A DNA stretch of 64,000 bases from positions 744,001 to 808,000 of the forward strand of contig NZ_JANRMI010000002.1 of the NCBI RefSeq assembly GCF_029531655.1, written 5' to 3'. The translations under genes and the position numbers were made by a program. Under the pieces are notes generated by a model. The model saw only the letters and a program-made list of their open reading frames with translations. It ran no database searches and was not told where the DNA came from. The stretch comes from Bdellovibrio svalbardensis (GTDB taxonomy: Bacteria; Bdellovibrionota; Bdellovibrionia; Bdellovibrionales; Bdellovibrionaceae). Shown piece by piece: positions 13,236 through 23,971 of the stretch; the first letter of the stretch is position 1; every line of letters begins with the position of its first letter.

Positions 13236-13358
13236 CGGGAGCTGATAAAGCTCCATCTGCTTCGTTGTCGAGAACCTTCCTTCACTGCGACCTACTGACC
13301 AGTAGGCCTCGCTTCGAAAGAACCTCTCCGCCTCTCATCTGAAGCTTTCTTAGCCCCC
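13236..13358 (+). repeat. Family A palindromic repeat, copy A6 (diverged)
   Basis: It starts 5 bases after the HTH gene stop. Outer arms are changed (GGGAGCTGATAAAGCT / AGCTTTCTTAGCCCC) but still pair. The inner CATCTGCTTCGTTGTCGAG block and the centre CCTACTGACCAGTAGG fit the family. The arm changes are partly compensatory. Confidence 0.8.
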
Positions 13359-13385
13359 TTGGTGTGTAGTCGCTAATCAAATTCA

Positions 13386-13500
13386 ATATCGTAAACAATC
13401 CTAAAAGTCTGAACGGATGCCGCAGGCTTATCCGTACACCCGATCTACATATGATCTAGCTCAAAGCCTTGAGGTAGATCATATCGCCAACCGTTTGTTC
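13386..13500 (+). repeat. Family B element, copy B3, with downstream promoter-like box
   Basis: It begins ATCGTAAACAATCC, has ACACCCGATCTACATATG, the hairpin GATCTAGCTCAA...TTGAGGTAGATC and ATATCGCCAACCG. TAGACAATCCTTTATTTAC follows, as after B2. It precedes the gene at 13644. Confidence 0.75.
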
Positions 13501-13643
13501 TCTTTTTCTTGGCTATAGACAATCCTTTATTTACCCCTCAATATTATCTCATGAGGTGGATTAAGTTAAGGGGTTCAGGTCATAGCCACTCCTGGAGGGT
13601 CAATTCAAATGAACAATGGTGGAAGAGTTATAAAGGGATTAAT

Positions 13644-14112: not shown

Positions 14113-14141
14113 TGAGCGCGAACTGCTCAATCCTGGGATAT

Positions 14142-14230
14142 CGCTTCATAATCTTCGAATCCTCCATTTGGCGGAGGTCCAGTCTCTTTAAGTAACTTGT
14201 TCTGTGGGAATACATAGAATAGTGTTTATA
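14142..14230 (+). repeat. Duplicated leader D1
   Basis: About 89 bp nearly identical to 16315-16403 (D2). The shared core includes GGCGGAGGTCCAGTCTCTTT and CTTGTTCTGTGGGAATACAT, and both copies end GTGTTTATA just before a start codon. Probably a duplicated promoter/leader. Confidence 0.85.
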
Positions 14231-14233
14231 TTG

Positions 14234-15265
14234 ATGATTGCGAATATCTTCTTTGTCATTCTTGGAATCTTCAGCGCTTCTCATGCTGAGCCCAACTTCA
14301 ACCGTGAGCCGCTAATGCTCAACATTGGGGATTCTTTCTGTCGGGGTGACTTTGAGCAATTTGATCGGTACATTAAAGACGTTCCTCCTGACAATCCTTT
14401 CTATTTGCAATATCAGCTCGCGGGCTTAAATACTCCAAATGGTCTTGCTCTAGTCACTCGGCGGATGCAAGAGTCCCCAAAAGATCTCAGTCAAATTTCA
14501 AATCTGGATCGATTGCTCTTTGGGGTGGCGATGACACAATTTGAAAATCCAGATAAATCGAGGATAAGGCAGTTTTTGGATTTTAAATCAAATAACCGCA
14601 TCCTAGAGATTTATCGCCAAGAGATCCTGGGCCTCATTGATTCTGATGCTGGGAAGAGTTTGGCGATCTCAATTGATGCTTTCGCGGCACTGCCATATCT
14701 GGACAGTGGCATTCTTAAAAGTATCTATAATCTAGGAATTAGATATAAAGACCGAGAGAGAATCTTAGGTCAGTTTTCACAGTTCGTCGATAAATTCCCT
14801 GACAACTCCTCTGAGAAATATGTTCTTATGGCTTACCGTGAGCTTGTTCCATTAAATCAGAAAGACAAATTAGCTTACTATGAATACTCAAAGAAAGCTT
14901 TTGAGCTTTGTAAGTATGATTCAGAAATAGCAATCTTACATATTGGAAGTCTCATATCCCAAAACAAGTTGGGTGAAGCTGAAATGGTGCTCAGAGAGCA
15001 AATAAAGATTCGTCCAAATTATAGCGCTTATTTTGACTATTACCTAGGAAAGATTCTTTTAGAGAAAGGTTCCAAGGCAGAAGCTTTGAGTTTTCTTAAT
15101 GAAGCCAATCGCAAACGGGGAATGCTGGCCAGCGACTATCAATCTAAACTTGATGATCTCATCTCAAAGGCAAATGGTTTTAACTGGTTCTATCCAGCAA
15201 TTGCTCTGGTTCTTATTGTGGCAGGTGGGGTCGTGATTAGTCTCCGAAGAAGGAAGATCGAATGA
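14234..15265 (+). CDS. TPR-like periplasmic protein with C-terminal TM
   Basis: 343 aa from the ATG at 14234, which matches the position of the start after the duplicated leader D2; a GTG at 14204 lies inside the leader. Signal sequence IANIFFVILGIFSASHAEP, then a long helical body with TPR-like pairs near the end (YLGKILLEKGSKAEALSFLN), then a TM helix (AIALVLIVAGGVVISLRRRK). Mostly periplasmic with a short cytoplasmic tail. The stop overlaps the ATG of a truncated gene copy (ATGA). Function unknown. Confidence 0.7.
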   Translation: MIANIFFVILGIFSASHAEPNFNREPLMLNIGDSFCRGDFEQFDRYIKDVPPDNPFYLQYQLAGLNTPNGLALVTRRMQESPKDLSQISNLDRLLFGVAMTQFENPDKSRIRQFLDFKSNNRILEIYRQEILGLIDSDAGKSLAISIDAFAALPYLDSGILKSIYNLGIRYKDRERILGQFSQFVDKFPDNSSEKYVLMAYRELVPLNQKDKLAYYEYSKKAFELCKYDSEIAILHIGSLISQNKLGEAEMVLREQIKIRPNYSAYFDYYLGKILLEKGSKAEALSFLNEANRKRGMLASDYQSKLDDLISKANGFNWFYPAIALVLIVAGGVVISLRRRKIE

Positions 15266-15315
15266 CCAGAATCCTACTTAAATTTGCTAGTGCCTATCAG
15301 TGGTTGGCTTTATGA
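15262..15315 (+). pseudogene. Truncated copy of the 16617-17129 membrane gene
   Basis: The first 16-17 codons (MTRILLKFASAYQWLAL) match 16617 onward at all but one or two bases, then a stop follows at a new junction. Like the intact copy, its ATG overlaps the stop of the gene before it. It marks the breakpoint of a segmental duplication. Confidence 0.85.
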
Positions 15316-15659
15316 TGTTGGCTTTGACTCCAGACTTACCGACTGGGGGGCTGTTTGAGGGCTTAACTTTTAAGGAATCTTTTGCCGTTACTTCTTCAGT
15401 AAGCGCGATTGTAAAAGGGTCTGCGAAGGACGGAAGCTTTTTGAACAACTTCTATGATTTTTATATCAATGATTACGGGATGAGTTTAGGATTTGCCGCA
15501 GCTGGAACAGTGCTTCCAAATGCGATACCAGAGGTGTATGATTATGTGAAATATCCAATATATGCAATTGGAGCTGCGAGTTGGTATAGTGGTTATCAGA
15601 ACGTAAACTGTGACCCTAAAACTGGTGGTGATCCTAGGAGTGCTGAGTGCAGAAAATAG
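15312..15659 (+). CDS. Hypothetical protein at a duplication junction
   Basis: 115 aa from the ATG at 15312; a GTG at 15300 lies inside the truncated duplicate, so the present start may have been created by the rearrangement. It is Gly/Ala-rich with a hydrophobic middle (YGMSLGFAAAGTVLPNAIPE) and ends in a Cys pair (NVNCDPKTGGDPRSAEC). It could be the surviving C-terminal part of a longer gene. It overlaps the next gene by 13 bases. Function unknown. Confidence 0.45.
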   Translation: MMLALTPDLPTGGLFEGLTFKESFAVTSSVSAIVKGSAKDGSFLNNFYDFYINDYGMSLGFAAAGTVLPNAIPEVYDYVKYPIYAIGAASWYSGYQNVNCDPKTGGDPRSAECRK

Positions 15660-16255: not shown

Positions 16256-16314
16256 GGAAGTGGAAGAATTTCTTTGATATTCTTTCATTCACGCATCCTG
16301 AACTCGGACCCGAT

Positions 16315-16403
16315 CGCTTCGTGATCTTCGAATCTTCCGCATGGCGGAGGTCCAGTCTCTTTAAGTAACTTGTTCTGTGGGAATACATAGAATAGTGTTT
16401 ATA
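16315..16403 (+). repeat. Duplicated leader D2
   Basis: Near-identical to D1 at 14142-14230. It precedes the small-membrane-protein operon that starts at 16405. Confidence 0.85.
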
Positions 16404-16404
16404 T

Positions 16405-16620
16405 ATGAAGGAAAGCGTAAAACCTGGAGAGGTCATTTTAAGTGTTACGTTTGTTGTGATCGCTTGCTGGCAGATTATTGAATACGCCACGACAGATTGT
16501 TTTACTGCCTTCGCTGAGCTTCCAATGGTTTGTGTTCAAAATAGACCATACGTTTTGGTTCTACTTATTGCCGTTGAGCTCCTATATCCAATTCTAATTT
16601 TGCGGAAGAAGTTTCAATGA
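16405..16620 (+). CDS. Small two-TM protein with Cys...Cys loop (member 1)
   Basis: 71 aa. TM1 (VILSVTFVVIACWQII), an external loop with two cysteines (DCFTAFAELPMVCVQ), TM2 (YVLVLLIAVELLYPILIL) and a short basic tail. First gene after leader D2; its stop overlaps the ATG of the next gene. It shares the layout of the proteins at 17119, 17343, 18121 and 18655. No known family recognised. Confidence 0.6.
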   Translation: MKESVKPGEVILSVTFVVIACWQIIEYATTDCFTAFAELPMVCVQNRPYVLVLLIAVELLYPILILRKKFQ

Positions 16621-17129
16621 CCAGAATCCTACTTAAGTTTGCTAGTGCCTATCAGTGGTTGGCTTTGGTGGTGTTGGTCTTGTCACACCTAACTTTCAAT
16701 GTGATGAAGATAAGCTTTGGGGCAACAATATTCTTCTCAGACGTTGCTGTAGGCGTTTTAAACTTTGTTATGAATCTGGCTCTCGCTCAGTTCTATTGGA
16801 AAGCTCAGATGAGCTTGGCAGGGCTTCAAGGTGCTAACTCACAGAACCGTAAGTTAAAATTCTGGGGGTTGCTGTCGATTTTCTCTGTGGGGCTAAATCA
16901 GTTCGGAGAAGTTGTTATGAAGGTCAAGAAAAGACCTTCAATTGAATCAATGAATACTGGTGCCCTAGATGTACTGTCTCAAGTGCTTTTATTTGCAAAT
17001 AGTTTGAAGCCGATTTTATACAAAATCATCTACATTTCCGGTTCGACAGCGAACTTGTTTTTTATATTACTGCTGTACTCTGTGTTCGTCGTTAAGAATC
17101 AAGATGGAGTCGTTGTCGATGAAAATTAA
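16617..17129 (+). CDS. Polytopic membrane protein
   Basis: 170 aa, ATG overlapping the previous stop. Four hydrophobic segments (LALVVLVLSHLTF; DVAVGVLNFVMNLALAQF; FWGLLSIFSVGLNQF; ANLFFILLLYSVFVV). No recognised motif. A truncated duplicate of its start lies at 15262-15315 behind a different gene, showing that this operon was partly duplicated. The next gene starts inside its last codons, so translation is probably coupled. Confidence 0.6.
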   Translation: MTRILLKFASAYQWLALVVLVLSHLTFNVMKISFGATIFFSDVAVGVLNFVMNLALAQFYWKAQMSLAGLQGANSQNRKLKFWGLLSIFSVGLNQFGEVVMKVKKRPSIESMNTGALDVLSQVLLFANSLKPILYKIIYISGSTANLFFILLLYSVFVVKNQDGVVVDEN

Positions 17130-17346
17130 GAAAATGGTATTCTTACTAGTGCTTTCTTCTGTTGTTCCGGCAGCGTACCTTTTTGATTATTACACTCAAG
17201 GATGTGTCTATAGCTTTGGTTCGGGGAGCGTTCGGACCTGTGGGGCTGAAGCTAAGAGCTTGGTGCTTTCGAGCTTTGCTGTATTTGGTTTGTTGGTGTT
17301 GGGCTTTCTGGTTGTTCTGTTTTTTGGTAAACGGAGAGTAAAGTGA
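17119..17346 (+). CDS. Small two-TM protein with Cys...Cys loop (member 2)
   Basis: 75 aa from the ATG at 17119 (GGAG upstream), inside the end of the preceding gene. TM1 (MVFLLVLSSVVPAAYLF), loop QGCVYSFGSGSVRTCGAE, TM2 (SFAVFGLLVLGFLVVLFF), basic tail KRRVK. The two loop cysteines and the following Gly are the family mark. It overlaps the next start (GTGA). Confidence 0.6.
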   Translation: MKIKKMVFLLVLSSVVPAAYLFDYYTQGCVYSFGSGSVRTCGAEAKSLVLSSFAVFGLLVLGFLVVLFFGKRRVK

Positions 17347-17543
17347 AGAAACTTAAGCAAACCGTTTTTCTTAGTTTTATCGTGTGGCTAATTACATTCA
17401 TTGATTATTTGGATGATGGATGTATTGATTGGCCGGGTGCCGCCAATGTGTGTGGTGGTCAGGCGAGTTTGGTTTTTTATTTGGTATCAGGTGTTTTTAT
17501 CGGCATTCCTTTTTGTTTGATGTTGGTGAAATACTTAAGGTGA
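17343..17543 (+). CDS. Small two-TM protein with Cys...Cys loop (member 3)
   Basis: 66 aa, GTG start overlapping the stop of member 2. TM1 (TVFLSFIVWLITFIDYL), loop DGCIDWPGAANVCGGQ, TM2 (LVFYLVSGVFIGIPFCLMLV), short basic tail. Cys-x10-Cys-Gly spacing, close to member 2. Last gene of the overlapping set that starts at 16405. Confidence 0.6.
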   Translation: MKKLKQTVFLSFIVWLITFIDYLDDGCIDWPGAANVCGGQASLVFYLVSGVFIGIPFCLMLVKYLR

Positions 17544-17677
17544 TGATTGTTTTTAGTAAATAGCAATATCTGCACGGGATGTAGGTTTTGAAGAACAAAA
17601 AAACTCTTTTTAGTTGAAAACTTGAAGATAGAGCCTGACGAAGTGCATGTGTCTATTTTTTCCAACAGAGGTCGATA

Positions 17678-18043
17678 GTGGAAAATGAGAGTGCTCGCGG
17701 ATATGCGCCAATTGGAACTAAAGGTGGCTTATATATTTATAAGTTTAACTTTGTGAAATGGGATCAAATTCAAAGTGCAAAGAAGCTCTCATTTTTTGGC
17801 CTTCCGTATTTGATTTTGCGACTTAGTGTTCGACGCCCACCGTTTTGGATAAAAACCTGGTGGGTGCCGATGTGCCTAGGTGATCTTTCCTCATCGGTTA
17901 TCAAGTACTGTCCGAATGGCAATCCACTTCGCGGTCAATTTGAAGGCGAGGGTACTCGAGTATCTTTTATTGAAGGAGTTTGGCTATACCTGCAAGCAAC
18001 TCTTATCATAGGAATTATGCTGTACTTAATTTCCATTATCTAA
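17678..18043 (+). CDS. Small membrane protein, possible PH-like
   Basis: 121 aa, GTG start with AGAGG upstream. A soluble beta-rich N-terminal region (GGLYIYKFNFVKWDQIQSAK, then LPYLILRLSVRRPPFW) precedes one C-terminal TM helix (LYLQATLIIGIMLYLISII). The strand-rich block recalls bacterial PH-like domains, as in the 12223 protein. Function unknown. Confidence 0.5.
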   Translation: MENESARGYAPIGTKGGLYIYKFNFVKWDQIQSAKKLSFFGLPYLILRLSVRRPPFWIKTWWVPMCLGDLSSSVIKYCPNGNPLRGQFEGEGTRVSFIEGVWLYLQATLIIGIMLYLISII

Positions 18044-18120
18044 GTTTTATATGAATTTATGGACTCGTGAGGAGTCTTTGTTAAGTTATAAATAGTAATA
18101 TATTTGATGGAGTTTGAACG

Positions 18121-18618
18121 TTGTTAAACTTTCTTATGGCTCTAGTGGCACTCTTAGTAGGCTATTTGTCTTTACGGACTTATAATATTTATGAGTGTTT
18201 GGAATATAAGCATATGGTGGTTTGTGGACCTCCAGCTAAAGTAGCCCTTGGAGTCGTCTTAGTTGCTTCTTTCGCAATAGCAATTCTTCTTATTCTTACT
18301 CAGCTTAAAATTATTAAGTTTCCAGAGGGCCCAGACGTAACCGACTTTCAGAAGAAAATAGAAGAGCGAGTAAATAACCTAACAAAGAAACATAATCTTT
18401 CTATCGACGATAGGTGGCGTAAGTACAGATATCATTTTTTATTCCTTAAATTGGATGGCTGCTCGATCTGGATATTTGATAACGGAAACATAGATTTTGA
18501 ATGTGATTCGGAAAAGCAAAAAATTATAGCTGAAAAGTTTGAGTCTGAGCAAGCGTTAGCAGATTACTTTCAAACAGTCTTGGAAAACTATCTTAATAGG
18601 AAAGCAAAGGAATCATAA
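18121..18618 (+). CDS. Two-TM protein with Cys...Cys loop and soluble domain (member 4)
   Basis: 165 aa, TTG start with GGAG about 8 bases upstream; an ATG at 18136 is possible. TM1 (FLMALVALLVGYLSL), loop YECLEYKHMVVCGPP, TM2 (VALGVVLVASFAIAILLIL), as in the short members. It adds a cytoplasmic domain of about 100 residues with a helix-rich start (DFQKKIEERVNNLTKKHNLS) and a strand pair (WRKYRYHFLFLKLDGCSIWI). It may be the ancestor or partner of the short forms. Confidence 0.55.
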   Translation: MLNFLMALVALLVGYLSLRTYNIYECLEYKHMVVCGPPAKVALGVVLVASFAIAILLILTQLKIIKFPEGPDVTDFQKKIEERVNNLTKKHNLSIDDRWRKYRYHFLFLKLDGCSIWIFDNGNIDFECDSEKQKIIAEKFESEQALADYFQTVLENYLNRKAKES

Positions 18619-18654
18619 TGCATATTGTCCCTGGAAGTAGTTTTGAAAGGCGCG

Positions 18655-18935
18655 ATGAAAGAAATTAACAAGGTTGAAAAATCGGGGCTTGAAGAGGCGG
18701 TCTATGGGCCGATTCTGTTTGGGTGTTTTTGGTAGGCTGTATTGGCTATTGCATCAGTCAGTCCGATGATAACTGCATGGTTTATTTCGGGAGAGGTTTT
18801 AAGACCGTTTGCGGATCTGAGCGCAATGATGCCTATCCTTCGCTTGCGATTGTGGGTGTTATGGCTGGTGGATTTTTAATCATTGGTCTTCGAAATCTTA
18901 AGAAGAAGCTAAAAGCGGAAGCAGATGAGAAGTAG
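18655..18935 (+). pseudogene. Two-TM Cys-loop protein (member 5), frameshifted
   Basis: ATG at 18655 with GAAAGG upstream; the frame reads MKEINKVEKSGLEEAVYGPI, LFGCFW and then stops at 18733. One base more in the five-T run at 18726-18730 would join it to the downstream frame, giving GCFLVGCIGYC and the loop DNCMVYFGRGFKTVCGSE, then TM2 and a Lys-rich tail. So it is either a broken gene, a slippage site, or a sequence error. An independent start at 18723 (GTG) is possible but has no good ribosome site. Confidence 0.6.
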
Positions 18936-21909: not shown

Positions 21910-21960
21910 TCAAAGGTGCGGAAGATAAATCACTAGGTTTTAATTTGAAGGAACATCATG

Positions 21961-21991
21961 AAGGCACTGAATAAAAGTTCAGTGCCTTTTT
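21961..21991 (+). terminator. Rho-independent terminator of cassette type 1
   Basis: AAGGCACTGAATAAAAGTTC with AGTGCCTTTTT. The same hairpin recurs at 22638 and 23843. Confidence 0.9.
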
Positions 21992-21992
21992 C

Positions 21993-22092
21993 CTTTTGTG
22001 TGAAACTTAGTTGGTTTGACGGAGCAATACGGAGAGAAATTTCGATTGAGTGTGGTCAGATGATCAGTGCGATCTTGATTGAATTGTTAATT
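21993..22092 (+). repeat. Duplicated leader S1 (cassette type 1)
   Basis: About 100 bp nearly identical to 22672-22770. Shared strings include TTGGTTTGACGGAGCAAT and TGTGGTCAGATGATCAGTGC. It follows the terminator and leads into the next secreted-protein gene, so it is probably a copied promoter region. Confidence 0.85.
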
Positions 22093-22154
22093 GAAAACAT
22101 TTGGCTTTGGACATTGAGAAATATCTGTGCTGAACTTCCTTGATCGAGGTGATC

Positions 22155-22607
22155 ATGAAGACCATTGGAATCATAGTTATATTTTTCTTCAACATCAGTT
22201 TAGCCGCTGCAGCCATAACTGGAGAATTCACTGTGCAACAAATGCCAGGCTGCACGCACCAATTGAATGCGTCAGCTCCAATGGCCGAAGACTTCACCTA
22301 TACGGGCGTCTCCATTCAAACAAATGTTCCAAATAGTATCCACATCACTCTGAACCCAAACTCAAGCCCTTTTAAGCCACAAATATATATTTGCGATTCG
22401 CAAGAACATAAGGGCGATGGTGTTAATACTGGTGATACCTATTTAGCAAGCTGTAGCGATGATTCAATCCATATTCGTAGAGTATTTCACCAGCTCAAAT
22501 ATTCGTTGATTGCAAATTATAGACAGACTTCTCTCGGATTAACCTACACTGAAACATTCGATGGCGACCAATTCACTCGCACATGCGAGTTTATATCTGT
22601 TCATTAA
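22155..22607 (+). CDS. Small secreted protein (cassette 1a)
   Basis: 150 aa from the ATG at 22155 (GAGGTG upstream). Signal peptide IGIIVIFFFNISLAAAAITG, then a beta-rich mature protein with four Cys: QMPGCTHQLNASAP, YICDSQEHKGDG, LASCSDDSIH, RTCEFISVH. Likely two disulfides in the periplasm or outside. No recognised family. It sits between duplicated leader S1 and a duplicated terminator, as a self-contained unit. Confidence 0.65.
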   Translation: MKTIGIIVIFFFNISLAAAAITGEFTVQQMPGCTHQLNASAPMAEDFTYTGVSIQTNVPNSIHITLNPNSSPFKPQIYICDSQEHKGDGVNTGDTYLASCSDDSIHIRRVFHQLKYSLIANYRQTSLGLTYTETFDGDQFTRTCEFISVH

Positions 22608-22637
22608 TCCCTAGGTTTTAAGCAAGATACGAATCAT

Positions 22638-22671
22638 AAAGGCGCTGAATAAAAGTTCAGTGCCTTTTTCT
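22638..22671 (+). terminator. Rho-independent terminator of cassette type 1
   Basis: AAAGGCGCTGAATAAAAGTT with CAGTGCCTTTTTC; second copy of the 21961 hairpin. Confidence 0.9.
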
Positions 22672-22770
22672 TTTTGTGCGAAGCTTTGTTGGTTTGACGG
22701 AGCAATGCGGAGAGAAATTTCGATTGAGTGTGGTCAGATGATCAGTGCGATCTTGATTGAATTGTTAATC
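22672..22770 (+). repeat. Duplicated leader S2 (cassette type 1)
   Basis: Second copy of S1 with only a few substitutions, leading into the gene at 22841. Confidence 0.85.
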
Positions 22771-22840
22771 GATAATATTTCTTTCCTTTAAAAAAAATGA
22801 AAGTCTTATCGAATACGTGGAAATATACGGGAGATACGCC

Positions 22841-23786: not shown

Positions 23787-23842
23787 CCGTTTAGAATTAA
23801 AAATAAGATCATCAAACCAGGATTTAAGTTGAATGCAAATCA

Positions 23843-23878
23843 TAAAGGCGCTGAATAGATTGTTCAGTGCCTTTTTCT
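23843..23878 (+). terminator. Rho-independent terminator of cassette type 1
   Basis: AAAGGCGCTGAATAGATTGT with TCAGTGCCTTTTTC; third copy of the hairpin. Confidence 0.85.
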
Positions 23879-23971
23879 TTTTGTGGGTCCGATGCAATGA
23901 TGGATTTTCCGGACGTCTTTCTCTTTCAATTCTTATCTGTCGCTGGAATACAATTCGCTACTCCCAATTTT

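Follow-up and report, generated by a model that had tools for sequence, protein, structure and literature searches.

Small two-transmembrane proteins with a cysteine loop in Bdellovibrio svalbardensis: a divergent family with a likely role in immunity to Rhs toxins

Introduction

A cluster of very small genes in the genome of Bdellovibrio svalbardensis encodes proteins in which two predicted transmembrane (TM) segments enclose a loop with two cysteines. Are these proteins related to one another, and what could they be for? The window, by which we mean the whole stretch of 64,000 nucleotides that was analysed, corresponds to C2:744001-808000 of the 3.9-Mb genome. An earlier note on this DNA, made from the sequence, had described five such proteins as a possibly undescribed family, with sensing, immunity to a toxin or membrane assembly as conceivable roles.

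Gene models of the cluster

The genes of the cluster are as follows; E values are those of the held-out profile described in the next section, except for p5.

16405..16620, forward strand: p1, family member, 71 aa, Cys32/Cys43, CV replacing CG; E 2.7e-6
16617..17129, forward strand: gene 16617, overlapping, 170-aa multi-TM protein without a Cys loop, not a member
17119..17346, forward strand: p2, family member, 75 aa, Cys29/Cys41; E 8.7e-11
17343..17543, forward strand: p3, family member, 66 aa, Cys27/Cys37, GTG start; E 1.5e-11
18121..18618, forward strand: p4, TTG start, family domain in residues 1-61, Cys26/Cys35; E 1.5e-4
18723..18935, forward strand: p5, TM1 truncated, Cys18/Cys30, GTG start; E 0.008 in the genome search with p2

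Four of the five proteins counted in the earlier note are intact (p1–p4), and p4 carries an extra soluble tail of about 105 aa beyond the family domain. The fifth had been assigned to an ORF at 18655, whose ATG is out of frame: the frame that it opens ends at TAG 18733-18735, and the Cys loop of p5 lies in a different frame, open from GTG 18723 to 18935. Because the Cys-loop frame opens only at that GTG, TM1 of p5 is cut short. The region 18655-18935 thus contains an apparent frameshift between an ATG-started TM1-like stretch and the p5 Cys loop, and p5 may be either a frameshifted gene (through decay or sequencing error) or a short GTG-started form.

The genes of p1, gene 16617, p2 and p3 form one head-to-tail run with overlaps of 4, 11 and 4 nt. 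An operon of three overlapping family genes had been proposed; p1, p2 and p3 do belong to one run, with gene 16617 bridging the junction between p1 and p2. Gene 16617 is possibly a partner of the family members.

Homology, conserved plan and distribution

As judged from their sequences, the Cys-loop ORFs of the window are homologous, beyond sharing a similar plan. A search of the whole genome with p2 as query matched only p2, p5 and p3. Since profiles that include window proteins recover them by construction, we used a held-out profile, built from 15 outside members and zero window sequences, on a 464-kb test set of about 3700 ORFs, drawn from the window and from background DNA. The profile placed p3, p2, p1, p4 and p5 at ranks 1–5, with E values of 1.5e-11, 8.7e-11, 2.7e-6, 1.5e-4 and 0.42; the best background ORF reached E of about 0.3–0.5, and p5 is not significant in this test. 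We regard p1–p4 as family members because the held-out profile ranks them above background, whereas p5 counts as one by virtue of the p2 search and its intact motif. The wide sequence divergence under a constant plan, remarked on from the outset, is accordingly that of a true family, detectable in p1–p4 by a profile that had not seen them.

The family plan spans about 70 aa and consists of TM1, a Cys-x(8-11)-Cys-Gly loop and TM2. Nine residues separate the cysteines in 11 of 21 members (range 8–11), and the second cysteine is followed by glycine in 19/21. Across members, the residue preceding the first cysteine is polar or Gly, and Lys/Arg lie close to the termini. As a control, 2483 ORFs of 40–200 aa were taken from 400 kb of this genome: none showed a TM-C-x-CG-TM plan and five showed the looser TM-C-x-C-TM plan, all spurious in appearance; the window holds three ORFs with the CG plan, plus p1 (CV).

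Relatives were gathered by searches and then by iterated profiles, and every sequence was read. Profile searching, the check that the earlier note had proposed, extended the family beyond the cluster: the genome itself carries two further, nearly identical copies (C2:541883 and C2:740774), and 13 other genomes contain members (G023, G001, G017, G005, G012, G075 with two, G098, G140, G051, G184, G185, G349 and G357). In the final scan of the phylum, 18 of 369 genomes matched at E 0.01. When the frames were read, the matches in G035, G039 and G213 were dropped as spurious and G070 proved to hold a degraded copy at most, leaving the family in 14/369 genomes, or about 4% of the phylum. Reading likewise eliminated the weak early matches, among them TatA/B-like proteins, enzymes and frames with stops. 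Scans of phage, plasmid, viral-contig and genome-contig sets with single members, which reach close relatives only, returned no relatives.

The duplicated pair at C2:541883 and C2:740774 has a dN/dS of 0.22 (0.041/0.186), and the protein is therefore under purifying selection. This bears on whether the window ORFs could have arisen by chance and not be genes at all. Their pairwise identity is 15–34%, three of the five start with GTG or TTG, and the frame of p5 is broken, all of which chance ORFs would display; held-out E values down to 1e-11, the empty set of 2483 controls and the dN/dS ratio speak against it. A chance origin is refuted for p1–p4 and hardly credible for the set, although p5 is possibly a dead gene.

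Association with Rhs toxin genes

We searched for Rhs_assc_core in the 14 member-bearing genomes, in which the members had been found independently of Rhs. At 7 of 17 member loci, the member's own strand carries an Rhs core no more than 3.3 kb upstream, where 0.02 would be expected (P about 6e-17). The G184 member overlaps a 1855-aa Rhs ORF, one of the G075 members (G075b) overlaps a tip ORF, and the G185 and G140 members are the next gene after a core/tip fragment; in total, a same-strand position directly downstream of or overlapping the Rhs gene is found for G184, both G075 members, G185 and G140. Window protein p3 itself matches a G075 member located behind an Rhs tip (tblastn, E 8e-7). 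The window copies do not occupy a direct downstream position, the nearest Rhs core being 21 kb upstream.

The tips concerned are of a distinct kind. The five tips that a member directly follows are all hydrophobic and rich in Gly and Ala (26–41% G+A; highest 19-residue hydropathy 1.7–2.5), against 5 of 20 other tips, a contrast with a Fisher P of 0.005, or 0.012 if the G075 pair is counted once, for tip boundaries that were set visually and include some short orphan fragments. The five other tips concerned reach a hydropathy of 1.57, and each of their followers (5/5) has at least two predicted TM segments. Followers of the remaining 15 tips have 0–5 predicted TM segments. A hydrophobic tip thus goes with a membrane follower, but a membrane follower does not imply a hydrophobic tip. 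The homologous hydrophobic tips at G000 739047 and in G005 (E 1e-13) have followers that are alike in length and plan, each with a soluble tail in addition to two TM segments. The predicted location of the members also fits the site of action, with two predicted TM helices in the members and hydrophobic character in 5/5 adjacent tips.

We consider it likely, from gene neighbourhood and tip character, that the family comprises inner-membrane immunity proteins against Rhs toxins with a hydrophobic, Gly/Ala-rich, membrane-inserting C-terminal tip. Of the three roles initially suggested, the Rhs neighbourhoods of the relatives thus speak strongly for immunity to a toxin, whereas sensing and membrane assembly find no support. 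Against immunity stand the six member loci with no Rhs core nearby (G023, G001, G017, G012, G098 and G349), as well as G051 and C2:541883, where a non-hydrophobic Rhs tip is separated from the member by other genes.

The same gene position beside a tip would equally be expected if the members were small accessory membrane proteins acting in the producing cell, where they would help to deliver hydrophobic Rhs tips, shield them or serve as their chaperones. We regard this as unlikely: arrays and lone copies far from Rhs (the window cluster, G023, G001, G012) resemble orphan immunity genes, and directly behind each adjacent tip only the member or its multi-TM neighbour is available. A general membrane redox or stress sensor that hitch-hikes in variable islands would agree with the conserved Cys pair and with the several lone loci without Rhs. 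Yet the patchy occurrence in 14/369 genomes, rapid divergence and tandem paralogues are unlike a housekeeping sensor, and the linkage to Rhs greatly exceeds chance, which makes a sensor quite improbable.

Multi-TM genes like 16617 overlap members in G075 and G140, and in G017 such a gene is fused to a member; the N-terminal part of this fusion protein is similar to p1 (E 1.3e-4). No homology was detected among these multi-TM neighbours (16617, G075, G140 and the G017 fusion). Pairwise overlap of a small hydrophobic protein with a multi-TM gene would also be compatible with the opposite assignment, in which the members act as small membrane toxins or as bacteriocins and a multi-TM neighbour (16617, for example) provides the immunity. 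However, p3, p4 and the G184 and G185 members have no multi-TM partner, and the complete Rhs toxin gene that precedes members would be left without an immunity gene; we rate members as toxins very improbable and retain immunity as the preferred role.

Two further sets of small membrane proteins were seen beside Rhs-linked loci. In G005 (L130:1263-1998), a hydrophobic Rhs tip is succeeded by three tandem paralogues of 73–76 aa that have two TM segments and lack the Cys loop; they probably form a further family of small membrane immunity proteins and have a relative at G000 C2:740246. In G140 (L126:2444-2665), a 73-aa two-TM protein behind the member seems to follow the family plan with both cysteines replaced (loop GMAATKWGRMSGDSA).

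The window cluster within an Rhs island

Upstream of the window and on the same strand lies a 1341-aa Rhs gene (C2:733713-737738), followed by two orphan core-plus-tip modules, both of which share an overlap with a small TM gene, and then by a family member. Hydrophobic tips of this genome lie at C2:737k, 738k and 739k. The window cluster is about 21 kb downstream of the last Rhs core, and the interval between the Rhs locus and the cluster contains ordinary-looking genes in either orientation, so that the array is not continuous, a point against immunity.

Between 12.2 and 19.4 kb in the window, the five homologous genes and several further candidates, all with a presumed immunity role, share a single orientation. 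One of these candidates is the following.

14204..15265, forward strand: gene 14204, 353-aa secreted/membrane protein with a weak TPR match and an Rhs-linked homologue

This homologue (30% identity over 349 aa, E 3e-40) follows the genome's second Rhs gene at a distance of 12 nt, and gene 14204 is probably another immunity type. Moreover, genes 7330 (64%), 11034 (30%) and 12223 (32%) have relatives in a G005 stretch between two Rhs cores that also contains a family member, and gene 19609 is similar to one in the vicinity of the other Rhs tip of G005. We read the window cluster, as its best interpretation, as an orphan (polyimmunity) array downstream of a same-strand Rhs locus, with no recognised toxin adjacent.

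Upstream of the cluster, the ORF at 15300-15659 (119 aa) is moderately hydrophobic (1.34) with two cysteines near its end. It could be an orphan toxin tip, and it is similar to none of the tips compared.

Repeats and apparent exchange of cassettes

Several repeated sequences accompany these genes.

16313..16404, forward strand: 92-nt repeat before p1, with a copy at 14140-14231 (93%)
15253..15321, forward strand: 70-nt copy (90%) of the start of gene 16617 (16608-16677), directly behind gene 14204
13237..13510, forward strand: spacer repeat of about 270 nt, recurring along the Rhs island
L052:1411-1708 and L053:1399-1696 (G000 C2:541.8k and 740.7k): 298-nt duplicated segment

The 92-nt repeat has only two copies in the genome, the one at 14140-14231 preceding gene 14204 and overlapping its start, and the 70-nt copy reads immediately into a stop. 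The unrelated genes 14204 and p1 are thereby enclosed by the same pair of flanks (92 nt at 93%, 70 nt at 90%), as if the gene between them had been exchanged, a single gene swapped between fixed ends. On a similar scale, the 298-nt segment, barely more than one family gene, occurs at two Rhs loci separated by 200 kb, with 93% identity between the copies; the left edge of the segment falls within the ATCGCCAACC end of a spacer repeat. Together, the flank-enclosed genes and the 298-nt duplication look like the exchange of single-gene cassettes.

Further copies of the spacer repeat (70–77% identity) lie at about -10570, -3520 and -1975 from the window start and at L054:8734-8820. The repeat is found along the Rhs island and near the second Rhs locus, with one copy in an ordinary intergenic stretch on C3; it is absent from 400 kb of control DNA and has no match in Rfam. 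An integron reading of these repeats was considered and set aside, given the empty Rfam result and a length of about 270 nt, which is long for an attC site. Separately, an intergenic unit is repeated at 21925-22102, 22603-22780 and 23816-23885 (89% over 180 nt), with a terminator-like hairpin inside and genes for small secreted proteins around it.

Structural model and proposed mechanism

The AlphaFold model of p2 consists of a helix (2-27), two strands (29-32 and 38-41) and a second helix (43-74), so that the loop is predicted to form a short β-hairpin between two helices with a Cys at each end, in line with the hairpin that the earlier note had envisaged. The model was computed from a five-sequence alignment with a pLDDT of 77.8 and a pTM of 0.49, and trust in it is therefore confined to secondary structure.

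On this basis, we propose the following mechanism. Hydrophobic Rhs tips would probably insert into the inner membrane, by analogy with Tse5 (PMC9637101). Both termini of a member would lie in the cytoplasm, because the Lys/Arg-rich ends are expected inside, which would place the Cys loop in the periplasm, where a disulfide could close it. The helices and loop would then bind the incoming tip in the membrane and block its insertion or the assembly of a pore. The multi-TM neighbour (16617, those in G075 and G140, and the G017 fusion) may be a second component, comparable to ExiC and ExiD, which act together against EsxX (PMC12744356). An orphan array such as that of the window would protect against the tips of relatives or against tips once used by the strain.

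More tentatively, these proteins might represent a new immunity superfamily in which a disulfide-closed periplasmic β-hairpin recognises the tips, with or without a multi-TM partner, and which travels as single-gene cassettes in Rhs islands of this phylum against membrane-inserting tips of many sequences; we hold this broader proposal to be possible, though doubtful.

If the immunity role is correct, a function would be assigned to a family that the annotation libraries searched do not recognise, and this phylum, to which the predatory Bdellovibrio belongs, would maintain orphan immunity arrays against membrane-attacking Rhs tips. The G184 and G075 loci would then offer compact natural toxin/immunity pairs for studying how two helices block a pore former.

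Comparison with known systems

Searches of Pfam, NCBIfam, PHROGs, PADLOC, PDB sequences and Foldseek gave no meaningful match for the family, which upholds the suggestion that it had not been described. Proteins that give immunity to polymorphic toxins are a known kind, as are polyimmunity loci (PMC3482391), and the family itself is new to the annotation libraries searched. KwaA of the Kiwa anti-phage system was considered and rejected: one of 18 members matches positions 2-63 of the 193-position model (E 8e-4), no window protein matches it, and a genome search with the KwaA model returns no members. A TonB-like neighbour in G001 and G023, an idea based on a single TonB_C match, was also dropped.

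Imm17 and Imm-CdiI resemble the family in having two TM helices, and Imm17 is found in heterogeneous polyimmunity loci (PMC3482391). Imm17 comes closest in plan. However, it is defined (PMC3482391) by a WxW motif and an Arg between the helices, which are absent here; the WxW hallmark is absent from the member alignment, and none of 18 members matches the Pfam Imm17 model at E up to 1.

The closest functional parallel may be Tsi5. Tse5 of Pseudomonas aeruginosa is described as a type VI secreted Rhs effector with a membrane-depolarising, pore-forming tip, and Tsi5 as the two-TM inner-membrane protein that confers immunity to it (PMC9637101, PMC10684867). By plan and context, the terms on which the two are compared, both pair a gene for a two-TM protein with an Rhs gene, and the family most likely works like Tsi5; the passages considered mention no Cys loop in Tsi5, unlike the family (PMC9637101, PMC10684867).

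Small polytopic membrane proteins also counter glycine-zipper membrane-damaging toxins elsewhere: ExiCD acts against the type VII toxin EsxX, and CdzI against the type I toxin CdzC/CdzD (PMC12744356, PMC5380434). Orphan copies of ExiCD are found in antitoxin islands, and its two proteins work as a pair (PMC12744356), as a member and its multi-TM neighbour possibly do here. In contrast to the family, TM numbers differ (CdzI has three), and the passages considered report no Cys loop (PMC12744356, PMC5380434).

At the level of gene arrangement, polyimmunity loci are same-strand runs of paralogous and unrelated immunity genes that lack toxins of their own (PMC3482391). The window array is likewise same-strand and without recognised toxins of its own. 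It differs from these loci in its position downstream of an Rhs locus, its spacer repeats, the ordinary genes interspersed and the undescribed families that it brings together.
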